In this document: positions 73 to 40,874 of the stretch, piece after piece
Numbering within the stretch: position 1 is the stretch's first letter
Layout: each line of letters begins with the position of its first letter
From: Polyangium spumosum
Lineage (GTDB): Bacteria; Myxococcota_A; Polyangia; Polyangiales; Polyangiaceae
Direction of reading: 5' to 3'
NCBI RefSeq assembly: GCF_009649845.1
Contig: NZ_WJIE01000003.1
Location: 1-64,000 of the forward strand
Length of the DNA stretch: 64,000 nt
Program-made: the position numbers and the translations under genes
The notes under the pieces: model-generated
Databases searched by the model: none
Seen by the model: only the letters and a program-made list of their open reading frames with translations
What the model was told of the DNA's origin: nothing

Positions 73-122
73 GAAGTGTCACCCAGGCTGCCGGTCTGAA
101 GTGTCACCCAAGATTCCGGTTG
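73..122. repeat. Pair of 25-bp direct repeats upstream of array 1
   Basis: GAAGTGTCACCCA occurs at 73-85 and again at 98-110, each followed by a partly conserved tail ending in CCGGT. The two copies are 25 bp apart and lie just before the 21-bp array. A related GCTGCCGGTC stands at position 1, so the repeat family may continue beyond the window edge. Function unknown; paired protein-binding sites are one possibility. Confidence 0.6.
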
Positions 123-136
123 CACACCCCCCGCGC

Positions 137-404
137 CGTACATCGACGCCCCTTCCCCGTACATCGACGTCCGCGAGCGCCTTCGAGACGCCCCCCGACC
201 TCTACATCGACGCCCCCCGACTTCTACATCGACGCCCCCGACCTCTACATCGACGCCCCCGAGCTCCTTCGAGACGCGCCCCCCGCCGTACATCGGCGCC
301 CCGAACCTCCTTCGAGACGCCCCCCACCCGCTTCGAGACGCCCCCCACCCGCTTCGAGACGCCCCCCAGCGTCCCACAGCACGAATCCGCCATTGCCGAG
401 ACGC
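137..404. repeat. Array 1: tandem 21/22-bp repeats with two unit variants
   Basis: Eleven units are aligned on a shared ACG (GCG in one unit) whose G falls at 148, 169, 190, 212, 234, 255, 276, 298, 319, 340 and 361, so every step is 21 or 22 bp. Two unit types alternate irregularly: A contains TACATCGACG, B contains TTCGAGACG; the order is A A B A A A B A B B B. A decayed B-type unit (CGAGACGCC, G at 403) keeps the phase two steps later. Units are separated by C-rich tracts. The repeats are direct, have no palindromic core and no unique spacers, so this is not a CRISPR. The 1-469 stretch contains no convincing gene; open minus-strand frames arise because the period is near a multiple of three. 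Confidence 0.9.
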
Positions 405-469
405 CACGGAGCGTTACCGTCACGACGCAACATCACACCTCGCCTTCCTCTCACGGGAAAGGAGACCTC

Positions 470-1246
470 ATGCCCCCCATCGACACGTCCACCATCGCTC
501 CCAAGGCTCGCCAGGAATACCTCCGCATCGGCAAGCAGTTCGGCTCCGCCGACACCCTGAAGCAAGCCAACAAGACCCTCGAGGCCTTCGAGAAGCACGG
601 CTCCGCCCTCAAAAACCACGGCTTCATCGCCGCCGACGCCACGCGCCTCTCCGACGCGCGGGATACGCTCATCGCCGCAGGCTTCGGGCGCGCCGAGGTC
701 CAGGGGGACCGAAAACTCACCAACAAAAGCTTCGTCGCCGCCCTCCAGGAAGGGAAGACCACCCGCGAGACCGCGCGCAGCATCCTCCACGCCGGCCACA
801 ATGCCCTCGTCGAGGAGGGGGACGAGGCCTCCAGCAATACGATCGCCGTCGCCCTCGACCAGACCCGCGCCGCCCAGGACGACGCCGAAAAACTCGCCGT
901 CCAGCTCGATACGCTCCGCGACGTCCTGACGAAGGAGGCCATCGCCGCCGCCGTCTTCGACCGCGGCGGGCCCGGCGCCGCTCTGCGCCTCGGAAAAGCC
1001 GCCGAAACCCTGCGCGCCGTCGCCAAGGAGCGCGAGGGCACGAGCACCGTGGCCGCGACCGAGCACCTCGATCTGATCGACGGGATCGTCGTCACCCTCG
1101 CCCGCTCCGCCCGCAAAGCCGCGCGCGCGGCGGCCCGCGAGCTCAAGCAACCCGCAATCGCCGCCGCATTCGAATTGAGCCACCTCTACGGCACGCGCTC
1201 CGACCGCAACCAGGCGCCTGAAGACACCTCCAGCGCGCCCGGCTGA
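470..1246 (+). CDS. Small helical protein downstream of repeat array 1 (unknown function)
   Basis: A 258-residue protein of no family I recognise. ATG 470 is chosen because GGAAAGGAGA lies about 5-10 bp upstream and frames further 5' run through the repeat array. It has no signal peptide or membrane segment. It is predicted largely alpha-helical, Ala-rich, with alternating Lys/Arg and Glu/Asp. Near the N-terminus Y-L-R-I-G is followed about 30 residues later by G-F-I-A-A-D-A-T-R-L, and further on by TTRETARSIL. The same order (YGIG, then GIVPKDIAKL, then TTR...RIL) occurs in the protein at 39414-40133, which also follows a 21-bp array, so I infer the two are distant paralogues. Ends 9 bp from the convergent phosphoesterase gene. 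Confidence 0.8.
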   Translation: MPPIDTSTIAPKARQEYLRIGKQFGSADTLKQANKTLEAFEKHGSALKNHGFIAADATRLSDARDTLIAAGFGRAEVQGDRKLTNKSFVAALQEGKTTRETARSILHAGHNALVEEGDEASSNTIAVALDQTRAAQDDAEKLAVQLDTLRDVLTKEAIAAAVFDRGGPGAALRLGKAAETLRAVAKEREGTSTVAATEHLDLIDGIVVTLARSARKAARAAARELKQPAIAAAFELSHLYGTRSDRNQAPEDTSSAPG

Positions 1247-6803: not shown

Positions 6804-8645
6804 ATGCGTCCTTCGCTTGCCTGGCGTGTCGCCTGCGCGTTCGCCCTCGTCCTCGTGTCGCTGCTGACGTTCGCCTCGTGTGGCTCGCGGACCGGGGGCC
6901 TCGACCTCTACGCCACGGGCGGCGGCGCGAGCTGCGGCGCGCTCGGCCAGACCTGCGGCCTGCCCGGCGACTGCTGCGCAGGCCTCTCCTGCCAGGACGA
7001 GGTCTGCAAGCCCGAGCAGCTCTGCGCGCCTCAGGGCAGCGCGTGCGAGACCACCGTCGACTGCTGCAACCTCGACTGCCTGAACGGCTTCTGCGGCGGC
7101 GTCTCCTGCAAGCCTGACGGCCTCGGCTGCGTGGAGAGCGCGGAGTGCTGCAACCTCGACTGCTGGCAGGGCTTCTGCGGCGGCATCGAGTGCGAGCCCG
7201 ACGGCTCCGCGTGTAGCGCGCCCCAGGACTGCTGCGGCTTCCAGTGCACGAACGGCTTCTGCGGCCCCGCCGTCTGCAAGCCCCAGGGCGCCACCTGCTT
7301 CGACGACGCCGACTGCTGCAACGGCGACTGCACGCAGAACGTCTGCGGCTCCGCCTGCCAGCAGGACGGGTTCGTCTGTCAAGACCCCTCGCAGTGCTGC
7401 TCCGGCCTCTGCACCGAGGGCGTCTGCGGCCCCGGCTTCTGCTCCCCGAACGGCTCGCCTTGCCAGGTCGGGCTCGAGTGCTGCTCGAGCTTCTGCCAGG
7501 GCGGCGTCTGCAACTTCCAGCCGTGCAGCCTCGACGGCGCGGGCTGCGGCGCGCCGAGTGATTGCTGCTCCAACATCTGCGAGGGCGGCGTCTGCGGCGG
7601 CGGCGTCTGCAAGGTCGACGGCGCCGCGTGCACCACGCACGCCCAGTGCTGCGCGGGCTTCTGCGACCCGTTCACGTCGCGCTGCGGCTTCAACCAGTGC
7701 CTGCCCGACTTCGCCGCCTGCGCGGTCGACTTCGAGTGCTGCTCGGGCTTCTGCGACCCGTTCACCGCGAGCTGCGGCTTCGCCCAGTGCCAGCCCGAGG
7801 GCTTCTTCTGCCAGAACGACTTCGAGTGCTGCTCGGGCTTCTGCGACCTCTCGACCTTCTCCTGCAGCCTCGGCGGCTGCACGCCCGACGGCATCTTCTG
7901 CGTCAACGACTTCCAGTGCTGCGGGGGCATCTGCGATCCGCTGACGAACACCTGCGGCCTCGGCCAGTGCATGCCAAACGGCTTCGGCTGCAGCGCCCCG
8001 AGCGACTGCTGCTCCGGTCTCTGCGACGGCGGCACGTGTTTCCCCGGCGCGTGCCAGCCCGACGGCTTCTTCTGCGACAACGGCTCCGACTGCTGCTCGG
8101 GCTTCTGCGACCCGGAGTTCTTCACCTGCGGCTTCAGCCAGTGCCAGCCCGACGGCTCCTTCTGCAACAGCCCCGCCGAGTGCTGCACGGGCGTCTGCAC
8201 GAACAACGTCTGCGGCGCGCCGCAATGCAAGCTCGACGGCTTCCCCTGCAACGGGGCAGGCGAGTGCTGCACGGGCGTCTGCGAGAACGGGATCTGCGGC
8301 GCGGGCTCGTGTTTGCCCACGGGTTCGAACTGCGTGAGTGATCCGCAGTGCTGCGTCGGCCTCGTGTGCAACGGCGGCCACTGCGGCGTGCCGGCCGTCG
8401 ACGCGGGCGCGTGTAGCCTCGACCCCGGCGGCACGCCGTGCTCGCAGTGCATCGTGGGGAGCTGCTGCGCGCAAACGGAGGCGTGCATCGGGAACCCGCC
8501 GTGCGCGTCGAGCATGAGCTGCTACCAGCGCTGCACCGTCGGCGGCGGCACCCCCGCGAGCTGCCAGCAGCAGTGCTGCACGGGCGACATCTGCAACCAG
8601 TGGTCGAACTGCGTGGCGCAGAGCTGCGCCGGGCCCTGCTTCTAG
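6804..8645 (+). CDS. Cys-rich repeat lipoprotein
   Basis: About 613 residues. Signal peptide with lipobox ending at Cys26 (LLTFASC). Nearly all the rest is a tandem repeat of about 30-35 residues with the pattern C-x-x-D/N-G-x-x-C, several residues, D/E-C-C-x-G-x-C, then G-x-C-G, recurring more than fifteen times with high DNA-level similarity. The pattern resembles extracellular disulfide-rich (dickkopf/EGF-like) repeats widespread in large myxobacterial genomes; each unit probably folds around its own disulfides in the periplasm or on the cell surface. The last 80 residues depart from the repeat but stay Cys-rich. Function unknown; adhesion or ligand binding is an inference. Its TAG overlaps the stop of the convergent gene by 4 bp. 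Confidence 0.85.
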   Translation: MRPSLAWRVACAFALVLVSLLTFASCGSRTGGLDLYATGGGASCGALGQTCGLPGDCCAGLSCQDEVCKPEQLCAPQGSACETTVDCCNLDCLNGFCGGVSCKPDGLGCVESAECCNLDCWQGFCGGIECEPDGSACSAPQDCCGFQCTNGFCGPAVCKPQGATCFDDADCCNGDCTQNVCGSACQQDGFVCQDPSQCCSGLCTEGVCGPGFCSPNGSPCQVGLECCSSFCQGGVCNFQPCSLDGAGCGAPSDCCSNICEGGVCGGGVCKVDGAACTTHAQCCAGFCDPFTSRCGFNQCLPDFAACAVDFECCSGFCDPFTASCGFAQCQPEGFFCQNDFECCSGFCDLSTFSCSLGGCTPDGIFCVNDFQCCGGICDPLTNTCGLGQCMPNGFGCSAPSDCCSGLCDGGTCFPGACQPDGFFCDNGSDCCSGFCDPEFFTCGFSQCQPDGSFCNSPAECCTGVCTNNVCGAPQCKLDGFPCNGAGECCTGVCENGICGAGSCLPTGSNCVSDPQCCVGLVCNGGHCGVPAVDAGACSLDPGGTPCSQCIVGSCCAQTEACIGNPPCASSMSCYQRCTVGGGTPASCQQQCCTGDICNQWSNCVAQSCAGPCF

Positions 8646-39023: not shown

Positions 39024-39064
39024 TCCGGCAGGGGCGAACGTAACTTTCATCACTCCCGACCCGC

Positions 39065-39337
39065 TCCGCGCTCTTCACGGGTCCCTCCGCGCTCTTCACG
39101 GGTCCCTCCGCGCCTTTCACGGGTCCCTCCGCGCTCTTCACGAGTGATTCCGCGCCTTTCACGGGTGCCTCCGCGCTCTTCACGGGTGCCTCCGCGCTCT
39201 TCACGGGTCCCTCCGCGCTCTTCACGGGTCTCTCCGCGCCTTTCACGGGTCCCTCCGCGCTCTTCACGGGTCCCTCCGCGCCTTTCACGGGTCCCTCCGC
39301 GCTCTTCACGGGTCCCTCCGCGCCTTTCACGGGTCTC
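39065..39337. repeat. Array 2: thirteen perfect 21-bp tandem repeats with two variants
   Basis: Thirteen units of exactly 21 bp begin at 39065 and every 21 bp to 39317. The core is GCGC-TC-TTCACGGG (X) or GCGC-CT-TTCACGGG (Y); the order is X X Y X Y X X X Y X Y X Y. Differences elsewhere are nearly confined to the last few bases of each unit (unit 4 ends GAGTGAT). The low divergence shows recent expansion or homogenisation. There are no spacers, and no stop codon in the minus-strand frames because 21 is divisible by three. The array ends 3 bp before the sigma-54-type element at 39341, so it occupies the usual upstream enhancer position. 21 bp equals two turns of B-DNA, placing each unit on the same face. 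Confidence 0.95.
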
Positions 39338-39340
39338 TGT

Positions 39341-39356
39341 TGGCACACGTCGTGCA
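39341..39356 (+). promoter_or_regulatory. Sigma-54-type promoter next to array 2
   Basis: TGGCACACGTCGTGCA has GG at 39342-39343 and GC at 39354-39355, exactly 10 bp apart, with a perfect TGGCAC -24 core and GTGCA for TTGCA at -12. The predicted transcript starts near 39367, and GGGAGGA precedes the ATG at 39414. Confidence 0.7.
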
Positions 39357-39413: not shown

Positions 39414-40133
39414 ATGAATGCACCGCTCATCGTGACCAACACGCTTCCCAGCAAGAGCTTCAACACCATCACGCAGCTCGGCCTCAAGGCCTTGAACCTC
39501 GCCCTCGTCCACAACGCAGCGCTCGGCCCGCGGTTGCCGCAAGGGCTGGTCGATGGGCTCATCATCGACATCGAAAAACTCGGCGAGGCCGTCCCCGGCG
39601 CGAAATTCGCGCAGGGCGAGGCCGTCGCAGCCACGAGCGCGCAAAACGTGGCGCTCGAAAGCGGACACGCCCAGGTGAAGCAGATCCGCGCCGCCATCCG
39701 CCGCGCGAAGGCGCCGGTCGACGTGAAACGCGCCTACGGCATCGGGCAGAAGGTGAACAAGACGAACGTGCGAGACGTGCAGGTCGCCATTCAGCACATC
39801 CTCGAGCGCGCCGAGAAAGCCCCGGACGAGGCGACGTCGCTCGGGATCGTGCCGAAGGACATCGCCAAGCTGAAGCAATCGCTGGCCGCAATCACGCAGG
39901 CCGACGCGCAGCAGGAGCAAAAACGCGCGACAGCGCCAGGCACGACGCGGGCACGCAATCGAACGGCAAACCGGATCCTCGCCGCCGTGGCGCGGATCGA
40001 GGGCGCAGGGCGCATCGAGTTCGAGGACGATCCGGCCATCCTCGCGGAGTTCGAGGCGCTCGGGGCGGGGACGCGGGGGAAGAAGAAGGGGGACGCGGAG
40101 AATGAGGAGGGGGAGGCGGATCCGGCGGGGTGA
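39414..40133 (+). CDS. Small helical protein downstream of repeat array 2 (unknown function)
   Basis: About 239 residues. ATG 39414 follows GGGAGGA. No signal peptide or membrane helix. The N-terminus (VTNTLPSKSFNTITQLGLKA) leads into helical, Lys/Arg- and Ala-rich segments; the tail is KKKGDAENEEGEAD. AYGIGQKVNK and, about 30 residues later, LGIVPKDIAKLKQSLAAI parallel YLRIGKQFG and HGFIAADATRLSDARDTLIA in the protein at 470-1246, and GTTR...NRIL parallels TTRETARSIL. No known domain recognised. Basic surface and position behind a tandem array suggest DNA or RNA binding, by analogy with iteron or parS-type autoregulators; this is inference. Expression is probably sigma-54-dependent. Confidence 0.82.
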   Translation: MNAPLIVTNTLPSKSFNTITQLGLKALNLALVHNAALGPRLPQGLVDGLIIDIEKLGEAVPGAKFAQGEAVAATSAQNVALESGHAQVKQIRAAIRRAKAPVDVKRAYGIGQKVNKTNVRDVQVAIQHILERAEKAPDEATSLGIVPKDIAKLKQSLAAITQADAQQEQKRATAPGTTRARNRTANRILAAVARIEGAGRIEFEDDPAILAEFEALGAGTRGKKKGDAENEEGEADPAG

Positions 40134-40326: not shown

Positions 40327-40557
40327 GTGCAAGCCCTGAAAGCACGTGTTCAGAACGGCCGCATCGTGGTGGATGAACCGACGGATCTGCCCGAGGGCAC
40401 GGTGCTCGATCTCGTGGTGGCCGATCCGGGCGATGAGCTCGACGAGGACGAGCGCGCCGCGTTGCATACCGCGCTCGACGAGGGGCTCGCAGACATGCAG
40501 GCCGGCGGGGGCATCGACGCAGAGACGTTGCTCGACGAGCTGCGGGCGCGCGGATGA
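40327..40557 (+). CDS. Antitoxin of a ParE/RelE-type toxin-antitoxin pair
   Basis: About 76 residues from GTG 40327. The N-terminal VQNGRIVVDEPTDLPEGTVL is typical of a small antitoxin family with an AbrB/DUF104-like strand domain, followed by an acidic helix (DELDEDERAALHTALDEGLA) that would wrap the toxin. Its stop overlaps the toxin start in ATGA (40554-40557), the usual arrangement of type II modules. Antitoxins of this kind normally repress their own operon; no clear operator is seen beyond the palindromic element upstream. Confidence 0.8.
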   Translation: MQALKARVQNGRIVVDEPTDLPEGTVLDLVVADPGDELDEDERAALHTALDEGLADMQAGGGIDAETLLDELRARG

Positions 40558-40853
40558 AGGTCGTTTTCCTGGGACGCTCGGCCGCGCAAGCTCGAGCGGT
40601 CGAGGCGTGGTGGCGGGACAACCAGGGGAGCTCGTCGCTCTTCACGAATGAGCTCGCCCTTGCGCTGCGACTCCTGAAGAGGGCGCCCGAGATGGGAGCG
40701 CCCTACGCGCCGAGAGCGGACCGAGGGGTCCGTCGGCTGCTGCTGCGACGGACCCAATATCATATTTATTACGTGTACGATCGGGACAAGAAAGTCATCG
40801 GGGTGCTCGCCATCTGGAGCTGTCTCCGAGGGAAGCCGCCGAAGCTGGGATGA
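40554..40853 (+). CDS. ParE/RelE-family toxin
   Basis: About 99 residues. The ParE/RelE fold is shown by LFTNELALALRLLKRAPEMG, the basic strand GVRRLLLRRTQYHIYYVYD and the ending VIGVLAIWSCLRG, the common beta-sheet pattern of plasmid-stabilisation toxins. RelE-type members cleave mRNA at the ribosome, ParE-type members act on gyrase; which applies here cannot be decided. It is translationally coupled to the antitoxin and ends 21 bp from the convergent kinase gene. Confidence 0.85.
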   Translation: MKVVFLGRSAAQARAVEAWWRDNQGSSSLFTNELALALRLLKRAPEMGAPYAPRADRGVRRLLLRRTQYHIYYVYDRDKKVIGVLAIWSCLRGKPPKLG

Positions 40854-40874
40854 GCCGGGGGCCCCGGGCCCACC

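Follow-up and report, generated by a model that had tools for sequence, protein, structure and literature searches.

In Polyangium spumosum and its relatives, genes for helical-looking proteins stand beside long, regularly spaced repeat arrays, and in the flanks seen the conserved unit is the gene plus its array. Judging from sequence, we give an even chance to the view that each such protein binds its own helically phased array, both beside its gene and at solo copies elsewhere, as a multisite complex, and that the locus described first below is one of these pairs. This locus lies in a window of 64,000 nucleotides, the whole stretch of DNA analysed, which is the start of contig C3 of the P. 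spumosum genome (G000; 10.76 Mb in 61 contigs). A sequence-only reading of the window had proposed an undescribed system in which each protein is paired with its own repeat type; this proposal is supported, as linkage of arrays to the genes exceeds background and, between Polyangium genomes, repeat type follows protein subtype.

Array 1 (139..372, forward strand) consists of 11 head-to-tail units, eight of 21 bp and three of 22 bp, in two variants: six units begin TACATCG (TACATCGACG..., one of them being TACATCGGCG) and five begin CTTCGAGACG.... At a lag of 21 it matches itself at 0.60 of positions, whereas shuffled sequence peaks at 0.41 ± 0.02 (z 9.6). A coding origin, in which 21 bp would encode 7-residue repeats, was rejected because the 22-bp units break the reading frame. 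Between the array and the start codon lies a leader (373..469, forward strand) that is conserved in six Polyangium orthologues and lacks a sigma-54 element. The family A gene follows (470..1246, forward strand) and encodes a protein of 258 aa, predicted by a low-confidence model to be all helical. The design that the sequence-only reading had described, a 21/22-bp period with two interspersed unit variants and a gene for a helical protein behind them (139-372 and 470-1246), was confirmed. The protein had no match over cut-off in Pfam or NCBIfam, none in PHROGs, and none in plasmid and phage searches. It has two paralogues in the same genome (47 and 48% identical) and a 79% identical orthologue in Polyangium sp. 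6x1 (L039), where the array is longer and, by eye, of the same kind.

Array 1 is abutted by an IS-like end (73..120) made of two 25-bp repeats (GAAGTGTCACCCA...). A similar pair of 25-bp repeats, also an IS-like end, was found at the start of contig C32 (L088, about 65-115), and next to it lie 7 further array-1 units in the opposite orientation. Because matching IS-like ends abut two halves of the same array on two contigs, these halves probably belong to a single array of about 18 units that was split by an insertion where the assembly broke.

Array 2 (39064..39335, forward strand) comprises 13 units, each 21 bp long, in the form CTCCGCGCTCTTCACGGGTCC and in a CCTTTCACG variant. Between it and the family B gene (39414..40133, forward strand; 239 aa, predicted helical with low confidence) stands a sigma-54 type -24/-12 element, TGGCACACGTCGTGCA (39341..39356, forward strand), whose score was reached by none of 200 shuffles. 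Two paralogues of the array-2 protein, 61 and 55% identical, are encoded in the same genome. The claim that arrays 1 and 2 are unrelated in sequence held: the pair falls outside the top 16 of 300 in 10-mer sharing, and the unlikeness extends to the families, with a mean shared 9-mer fraction of 0.008 over 432 A-B array pairs. The family B window protein matched the NCBIfam PQLLE family (NF052641) with 33 bits (E 4.7e-8), below the curated cut-off of 80 bits. We abandoned this lead, as two genes over the cut-off in G275 have no 21-, 22-, 42-, 43- or 44-bp array beside either; we found no mention of the PQLLE family in the open-access literature searched. Elsewhere in the window, the array-2 gene is followed by two short genes that overlap each other (40329-40854) and that resemble, by eye, a RelE-type antitoxin-toxin pair, and a Cys-rich protein of 613 aa (6804-8645) has repeats of about 28-30 residues, encoded by 84/90-bp tandem repeats.

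Of 183 genomes in the order, 19 carry family A and 13 carry family B. Forty loci were examined out of 51 places found for family A (11 fragments were left out), and 21 out of 24 for family B (3 fragments left out); the 5' flank of one family A locus (L036) was too short, so that 5' counts use 39. All six A and B loci of this genome have 21-bp periodicity upstream, each of different sequence; at two of them (L002 and L003) it is weaker (z 8.0 and 5.5) and fails a strict test, which four of the six pass. Across the genomes, the top 5' lag was 21, 42 or 43 with z above 5 at 24/39 A and 19/21 B loci. By the strict test, an array stood 5' of the gene at 20/39 A and 18/21 B loci, compared with 21/626 background genes in 0.8 Mb of the same genome. 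Counted on either side, the figures were 23/40 for family A and 46/626 for that background; rounding scores before applying the threshold raises the A counts from 20 to 21 (5') and from 23/40 to 25/40 (either side). Three other genomes, also sampled, had an either-side background of 12/310, 15/280 and 8/348. Among background genes of 200-320 aa, an array was present at 10/139 in this genome and at 2/65, 7/50 and 3/90 in three others, the 7/50 being the value for G070. Fisher tests of linkage gave 1e-16 for A, 2e-21 for B and 2e-18 for family C (introduced below), with related loci treated as independent. Arrays are thus not placed at random with respect to the family, the linkage being far above background; it is real, though not universal. 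At 11/40 family A loci neither periodicity nor the strict test revealed an array; three of these are Polyangium paralogues (L014, L063 and L064) that keep the leader and lack the array repeats. Distant A members (L021, L073, L025 and L026) have 42- or 21-bp arrays on the 3' side, not the 5' side; those of L025 and L026, divergent members from another taxonomic family, are 21-bp arrays (0.72 and 0.83). Neighbours that recur beside family A do so only within local syntenic groups (34 loci, 1.5 kb, rough ORF calls).

Two further families, C and D, have arrays of about twice that period. Family C was found in 24/183 genomes, with six copies in this genome, and 28 of the 30 loci returned were examined. 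A 42/43-bp array stands beside the gene at 22/28, on the 5' side at 7 and on the 3' side at 15, including two loci in taxonomic family f12 (L227 and L228); the other 6/28 have none. Family D matches occur in 15/183 genomes and are mostly partial: among 31 places, 5 hold near-full-length loci, of which four have a 3' array and one has no array. The C and D counts use rounded scores, the background does not, and one C locus (L210) passes only at the rounded threshold. In the neighbour survey, which covered 34 A, 27 C and 5 D loci, one gene recurs beside family C, at three Polyangium loci (27 loci, 1.5 kb, rough ORF calls). No gene recurred within 1.5 kb of at least three of the five D loci by the same rough ORF calls, which missed the D gene itself in L240.

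The D units, and by eye several C units, contain palindromes of 12-16 bp. The D palindrome CCGTCAGNNCTGACGG is repeated in 4/4 tested genomes with a full-length D gene (G000, G151, G152 and G180); in genomes with partial D-like matches only, it has no site in G149, G150 or G130 and one site in G148. A reversed control of the palindrome gave 0 in all eight genomes. For the co-occurrence of the repeated palindrome with full-length D in these eight genomes, Fisher's test gives 0.03. The palindrome stands at the D locus itself in three of the four full-length-D genomes, the linked array of G152 having diverged, and at one to three further places in each of the four. These further sites are three at 43-bp spacing in G000 (C1:107,319-107,420) and four each in G151 and G152; G180 has one single exact site and two pairs, with a distance of 215-216 bp within the pairs. 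G180, from another taxonomic family, has a D protein with 50% identity and an unchanged palindrome in a repeat unit that otherwise differs. In the flanks examined, nothing else conserved appears to travel with the D palindrome.

We scanned C1:1-800,000 of the same genome for arrays. The scan gave 19 candidates, with low-complexity ones set aside, and one in-frame case (C1:161732) was dropped, leaving 18. Lags divisible by 3 were set aside because coding sequence and low complexity produce them (21 and 42 are also occupied). Of the array-lags from 10 to 160 that are not divisible by 3, 41/45 fall at 22, 43, 65, 85-86, 106-107, 127-130 and 151, and the 4/45 strays are 103 once, 139 once and 148 twice. 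Since the lags cluster near multiples of 21.5 bp, the basic array period comes to about 21.5 bp, which corresponds to two turns of B-DNA; it is often doubled. The pattern is weaker in other genera: G130 has lags of 22, 44 and 88, G070 has 22, 44, 88 and 110 among unrelated lags, and G180 has 41 and 83 beside 42 and 84, plus unrelated lags.

The sequence-only reading had expected such arrays to accompany the family, which they do, but not exclusively: of the 18 arrays in this 0.8 Mb, some adjoin helical families other than A and B and some adjoin none. Four of the 18 stand next to genes for helical-looking proteins of 230-300 aa without a Pfam or NCBIfam family, families C and D being two of these, and three others (C1:440219, 551469 and 657408), with no recognised family gene beside them, are flanked by convergent genes. 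Individual places in G000 deserve mention in their own right. A gene at C1:438808-440100 whose product has a long Lys/Arg/Ala-rich tail, histone-H1-like by eye, adjoins the 21-bp array C1:440219-440676. Families E (C1:721128-722027) and F (C1:527668-528363) are helical-looking database orphans beside 43- and 42-bp arrays, and the family E array type was found again at C1:491731. The 43-bp arrays at C1:128093-128333 and C1:273561-273798 have CGTCGACGATCGGGTTTTG in common.

How far array sequence follows protein sequence depends on the distance compared. Between Polyangium genomes, pairs of family A proteins with an identity of 0.7 or more (n=32) have 27% of array 9-mers in common, and pairs below 0.6 (n=87) have 0.8%; for family B, orthologue-like pairs share 13% (n=30) versus 0.6% for paralogue-like pairs (n=11). 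In a Mantel test of array against protein likeness, 0/1000 permutations reached the observed value for A and for B. Shared descent of orthologous DNA contributes to this agreement. Between genera, 9-mer sharing is 0.65% for A and 0.83% for B, compared with 0.81% for A-B pairs; because A and B arrays of different genera are no more alike than unrelated ones, conservation of the site along with the protein is seen for D only. The expected parallel divergence of arrays and proteins is therefore found between Polyangium genomes but not, for A and B, between genera. A fixed-register comparison of consensus units gave a Spearman correlation of -0.17 for A (469/500 permutations at or above) and +0.48 for B (1/500); we think that the negative value for A arises from 22-bp units blurring the 21-bp consensus.

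Within this genome, 25 arrays form 300 pairs, of which seven share 7-64 10-mers and the rest 4 or fewer. These seven are the two halves of array 1 with each other, each half with a solo array at C1:759787, C1:107234 with 580371, C1:128093 with 273561, C1:491731 with 722179, and the solo array C1:415814 with the linked array of L005. The solo array of the array-1 type (C1:759,787-760,259) has 16-18 recognisable units and is flanked by genes that we take to be hemW-like and TPR. Array-2 repeats recur at C2:275366-275612 (12 sites), at C7:183797-184022 (11) and in G151 C44, and a family B search of the genome found no family B gene at the C2 and C7 places. Most solo sites outside C1:1-800,000 may thus have an unrecognised partner gene next to them. 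The A-I solo array was not clearly recovered in other Polyangium genomes: its 14-mer, sought with one mismatch allowed, was about as frequent as its control and stood at background level in 10/10 genomes, among the matches listed, so that it was rejected as evidence for solo A-I arrays elsewhere; in G149 (2 contigs) the linked cluster alone appeared among the matches listed.

The main rival explanation, the most credible of those considered and nevertheless unlikely in our judgement, is that the arrays work as enhancers, each a cluster of upstream sites from which separate regulators, be they sigma-54 activators or others, would act, with the helical proteins as the regulated output. The sigma-54 -24/-12 consensus is GG-N10-GC, and loci were scored by this consensus against shuffles. 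Family B of Polyangium does resemble a sigma-54 promoter with upstream activator sites. At 11/13 loci an element TGGCA[CT]-N5-[GA]TGCA precedes the ATG by 68-76 bp, and for each of them 0 to 3% of shuffles score as well; at 6/13 a gene for an FHA-sigma54-activator stands directly upstream of the array (L090:8158-9558 in G000:C6; loci L005, L042, L043, L044, L045 and L053). The L090 copy has the Pfam domains Sigma54_activat, FHA and HTH_8, and the other five copies are 80-83% identical to it. A tblastn search with one activator as query against 36 of the 40 A loci, 21 B loci and 35 C/D loci (flanks of about 1.5 kb) found it at these 6 B loci only, all in Polyangium. In addition, array C1:128093 stands 116 bp before a gene whose product we take to be LuxR-like. 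Against a general enhancer role, the element is present at 0/8 non-Polyangium B loci and is absent from family A, where 0/40 loci beat shuffles (lowest fraction 0.175), in agreement with the earlier statement that none precedes the array-1 gene. Likewise, C and D arrays stand mostly 3' of the gene (19/26 positive loci), the arrays C1:440219, 551469 and 657408 lie between convergent genes, and the solo L005-type array C1:415814 has, by eye, no sigma-54 element. The Polyangium family B array could be a multi-site enhancer for the adjacent activator, and the protein served by the arrays may differ from family to family.

A second question is whether A and B are two divergent branches of one family, which would make the window loci true paralogues, as the sequence-only reading had supposed; we consider this rather doubtful. 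All three motifs on which that supposition was built are present in both window proteins, but the TTR motif is not conserved in family A, whose consensus at this position is xxRxxARSxL. Profile comparison of A and B gave a probability of 0.1% with 3+3 sequences; 34% with 35 versus 21 sequences (P 4e-4, colinear over 200 columns); and 3% (E 0.015) with 38 versus 21 in another alignment, in a different register (A 27-86 to B 121-180). The A-B score (23.7) does exceed the 14.0-16.6 that either family reaches with C or D, though the rotation null of this four-family comparison is weak, as it keeps the matched segment. Taken together the profile results are marginal and inconsistent, close to an absence of significant similarity, and the apparent paralogy was not borne out. 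Structure models of the window A protein (with its orthologue L039) and of the window B protein (alone) were both helical, with pLDDT 49 and 46, and gave no reliable fold for either. More generally, profile comparison revealed no robust homology among families A, B, C and D and no link of C or D to the others, so that a common mechanism would be one of analogy.

The proteins themselves carry no recognised DNA-binding domain, of the ParB, CopG, ParR or any other type, in searches of A-D representatives against Pfam, NCBIfam and PHROGs. Family A proteins have pI values of 5.2-10.5, many being neutral or acidic, and one extended protein has 11.4. TALE-like (BurrH) proteins contain tandem 33-residue DNA-reading repeats, and family A matched a BurrH profile from the PDB. 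This assignment was rejected as an artefact of summed repeats: the E value of 9e-12 is a sum over repeats, and the best single stretch reaches 9.2 bits (i-E 8.5).

A role of the proteins on RNA appears improbable; in this view the arrays would be transcribed, and the protein would bind hairpins formed by the repeats, which at many C and D loci are palindromic. The 12-16 bp palindromes and the 3' position of the array at 19/26 positive C and D loci would suit it. Set against these are Polyangium B arrays lying upstream of the sigma-54 element, A and B units that are mostly non-palindromic by eye, an array side that varies, periods that track DNA helical turns, and a scan of the window in which no Rfam family matched at gathering score. 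Least probable of all is that the arrays are functionless minisatellites placed by the tolerance of long intergenic regions: their number (18 in 0.8 Mb), their varying copy number, the 11/40 A loci without one and the 7/50 genes of 200-320 aa with one in G070 would fit, but array periods come in steps of about 21.5 bp, genomes of different taxonomic families have the same D palindrome in units that otherwise differ, and the family loci of this genome stand far above genes of 200-320 aa (10/139).

The reading we prefer, that each protein binds its own array, can be set out as follows. A pair, in Polyangium and relatives in the order, consists of a gene whose helical product measures about 230-300 aa and of an array directly beside it, with 5-20 or more sites spaced 21-22 bp (mostly A and B) or 42-44 bp (C and D) apart. 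Because this spacing equals two or four turns of B-DNA, all sites would face one side of the helix, which suggests cooperative assembly. The neighbouring protein itself would read the array unit by phased, cooperative binding, as dimers at least at the palindromic C and D sites: the palindromic cores of 42/43-bp units point to a dimer at every fourth turn, and the 21-bp units to smaller sites every two turns. Away from the gene, the same site type recurs in solo arrays, one to a few per type. More weakly, we infer that complexes on linked and solo arrays act in common, tethering loci or regulating their own gene and a few others; their function may be local gene control, control of a few distant genes, or the joining of distant loci. 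A more ambitious version, which we offer as speculation and hold less likely than either the enhancer explanation or the kinship of A and B, is an addressing system of at least a dozen helical proteins, mutually orthogonal, each of which would have its own helically phased array next to the gene and at one to three remote places; assembled on these arrays, the proteins would bring together or position loci in very large genomes of 10-16 Mb.

Several known systems share parts of this arrangement. In ParB-parS, ParR-parC and plasmid iterons, a protein gene lies beside its own cluster of sites, which nucleates a large nucleoprotein complex. The protein gene adjoins a site cluster here as well, binding in the arrays being our proposal from sequence. 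The systems differ in that A-D representatives match no ParB, CopG or ParR type family, many types occur in one genome, and no neighbour gene recurs across genera within about 1.5 kb of the arrays (rough ORF calls). In the meiosis of C. elegans, the zinc-finger proteins HIM-8 and ZIM act at pairing centres, each with its own dispersed chromosomal repeat arrays; several proteins with their own arrays are a common feature, but the system is eukaryotic, meiotic and based on zinc fingers, and it serves as an analogy only. We know of no system in which several protein families, each with repeat types of their own, occur together with a two-turn ruler and with solo arrays dispersed over the genome, and for this reason we take the present one as a new kind of system, its function being unproven. 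We found no description of such a protein-array set in the open-access literature searched.

CarH operators are tandem 11-bp direct repeats, 3-5 in number, at promoters, and are bound by oligomers (PMC9304148). They resemble our arrays in being helix-phased tandem repeats with a cooperative oligomer on one face, and are partly myxobacterial; they differ in having one-turn repeats and a B12-binding photoreceptor, and the portion of that account drawn on here describes no long solo arrays or paired types (PMC9304148). The nearest genome-wide repeat class found is the TAACTGA heptamer of Beggiatoaceae, which forms intergenic direct-repeat arrays across the genome, mostly just before start codons, and whose factor is given as unknown in the sections consulted (PMC4679880). 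It is a single heptamer without two-turn spacing, and those sections report no partner gene (PMC4679880).

If the preferred reading is true, proteins of unknown function would gain a target that can be read from sequence alone, in the array beside each gene. Such pairs would be orthogonal protein-DNA pairs with built-in specificity data, and a genome-wide repeat class would become interpretable. Even if other regulators use the arrays, long one-faced site arrays on such a scale would be an unusual regulatory architecture. The pairs would also offer a way into how multi-megabase bacterial chromosomes are organised or how distant loci are co-regulated and, were the addressing system to hold, they would be a bacterial counterpart of pairing centres.
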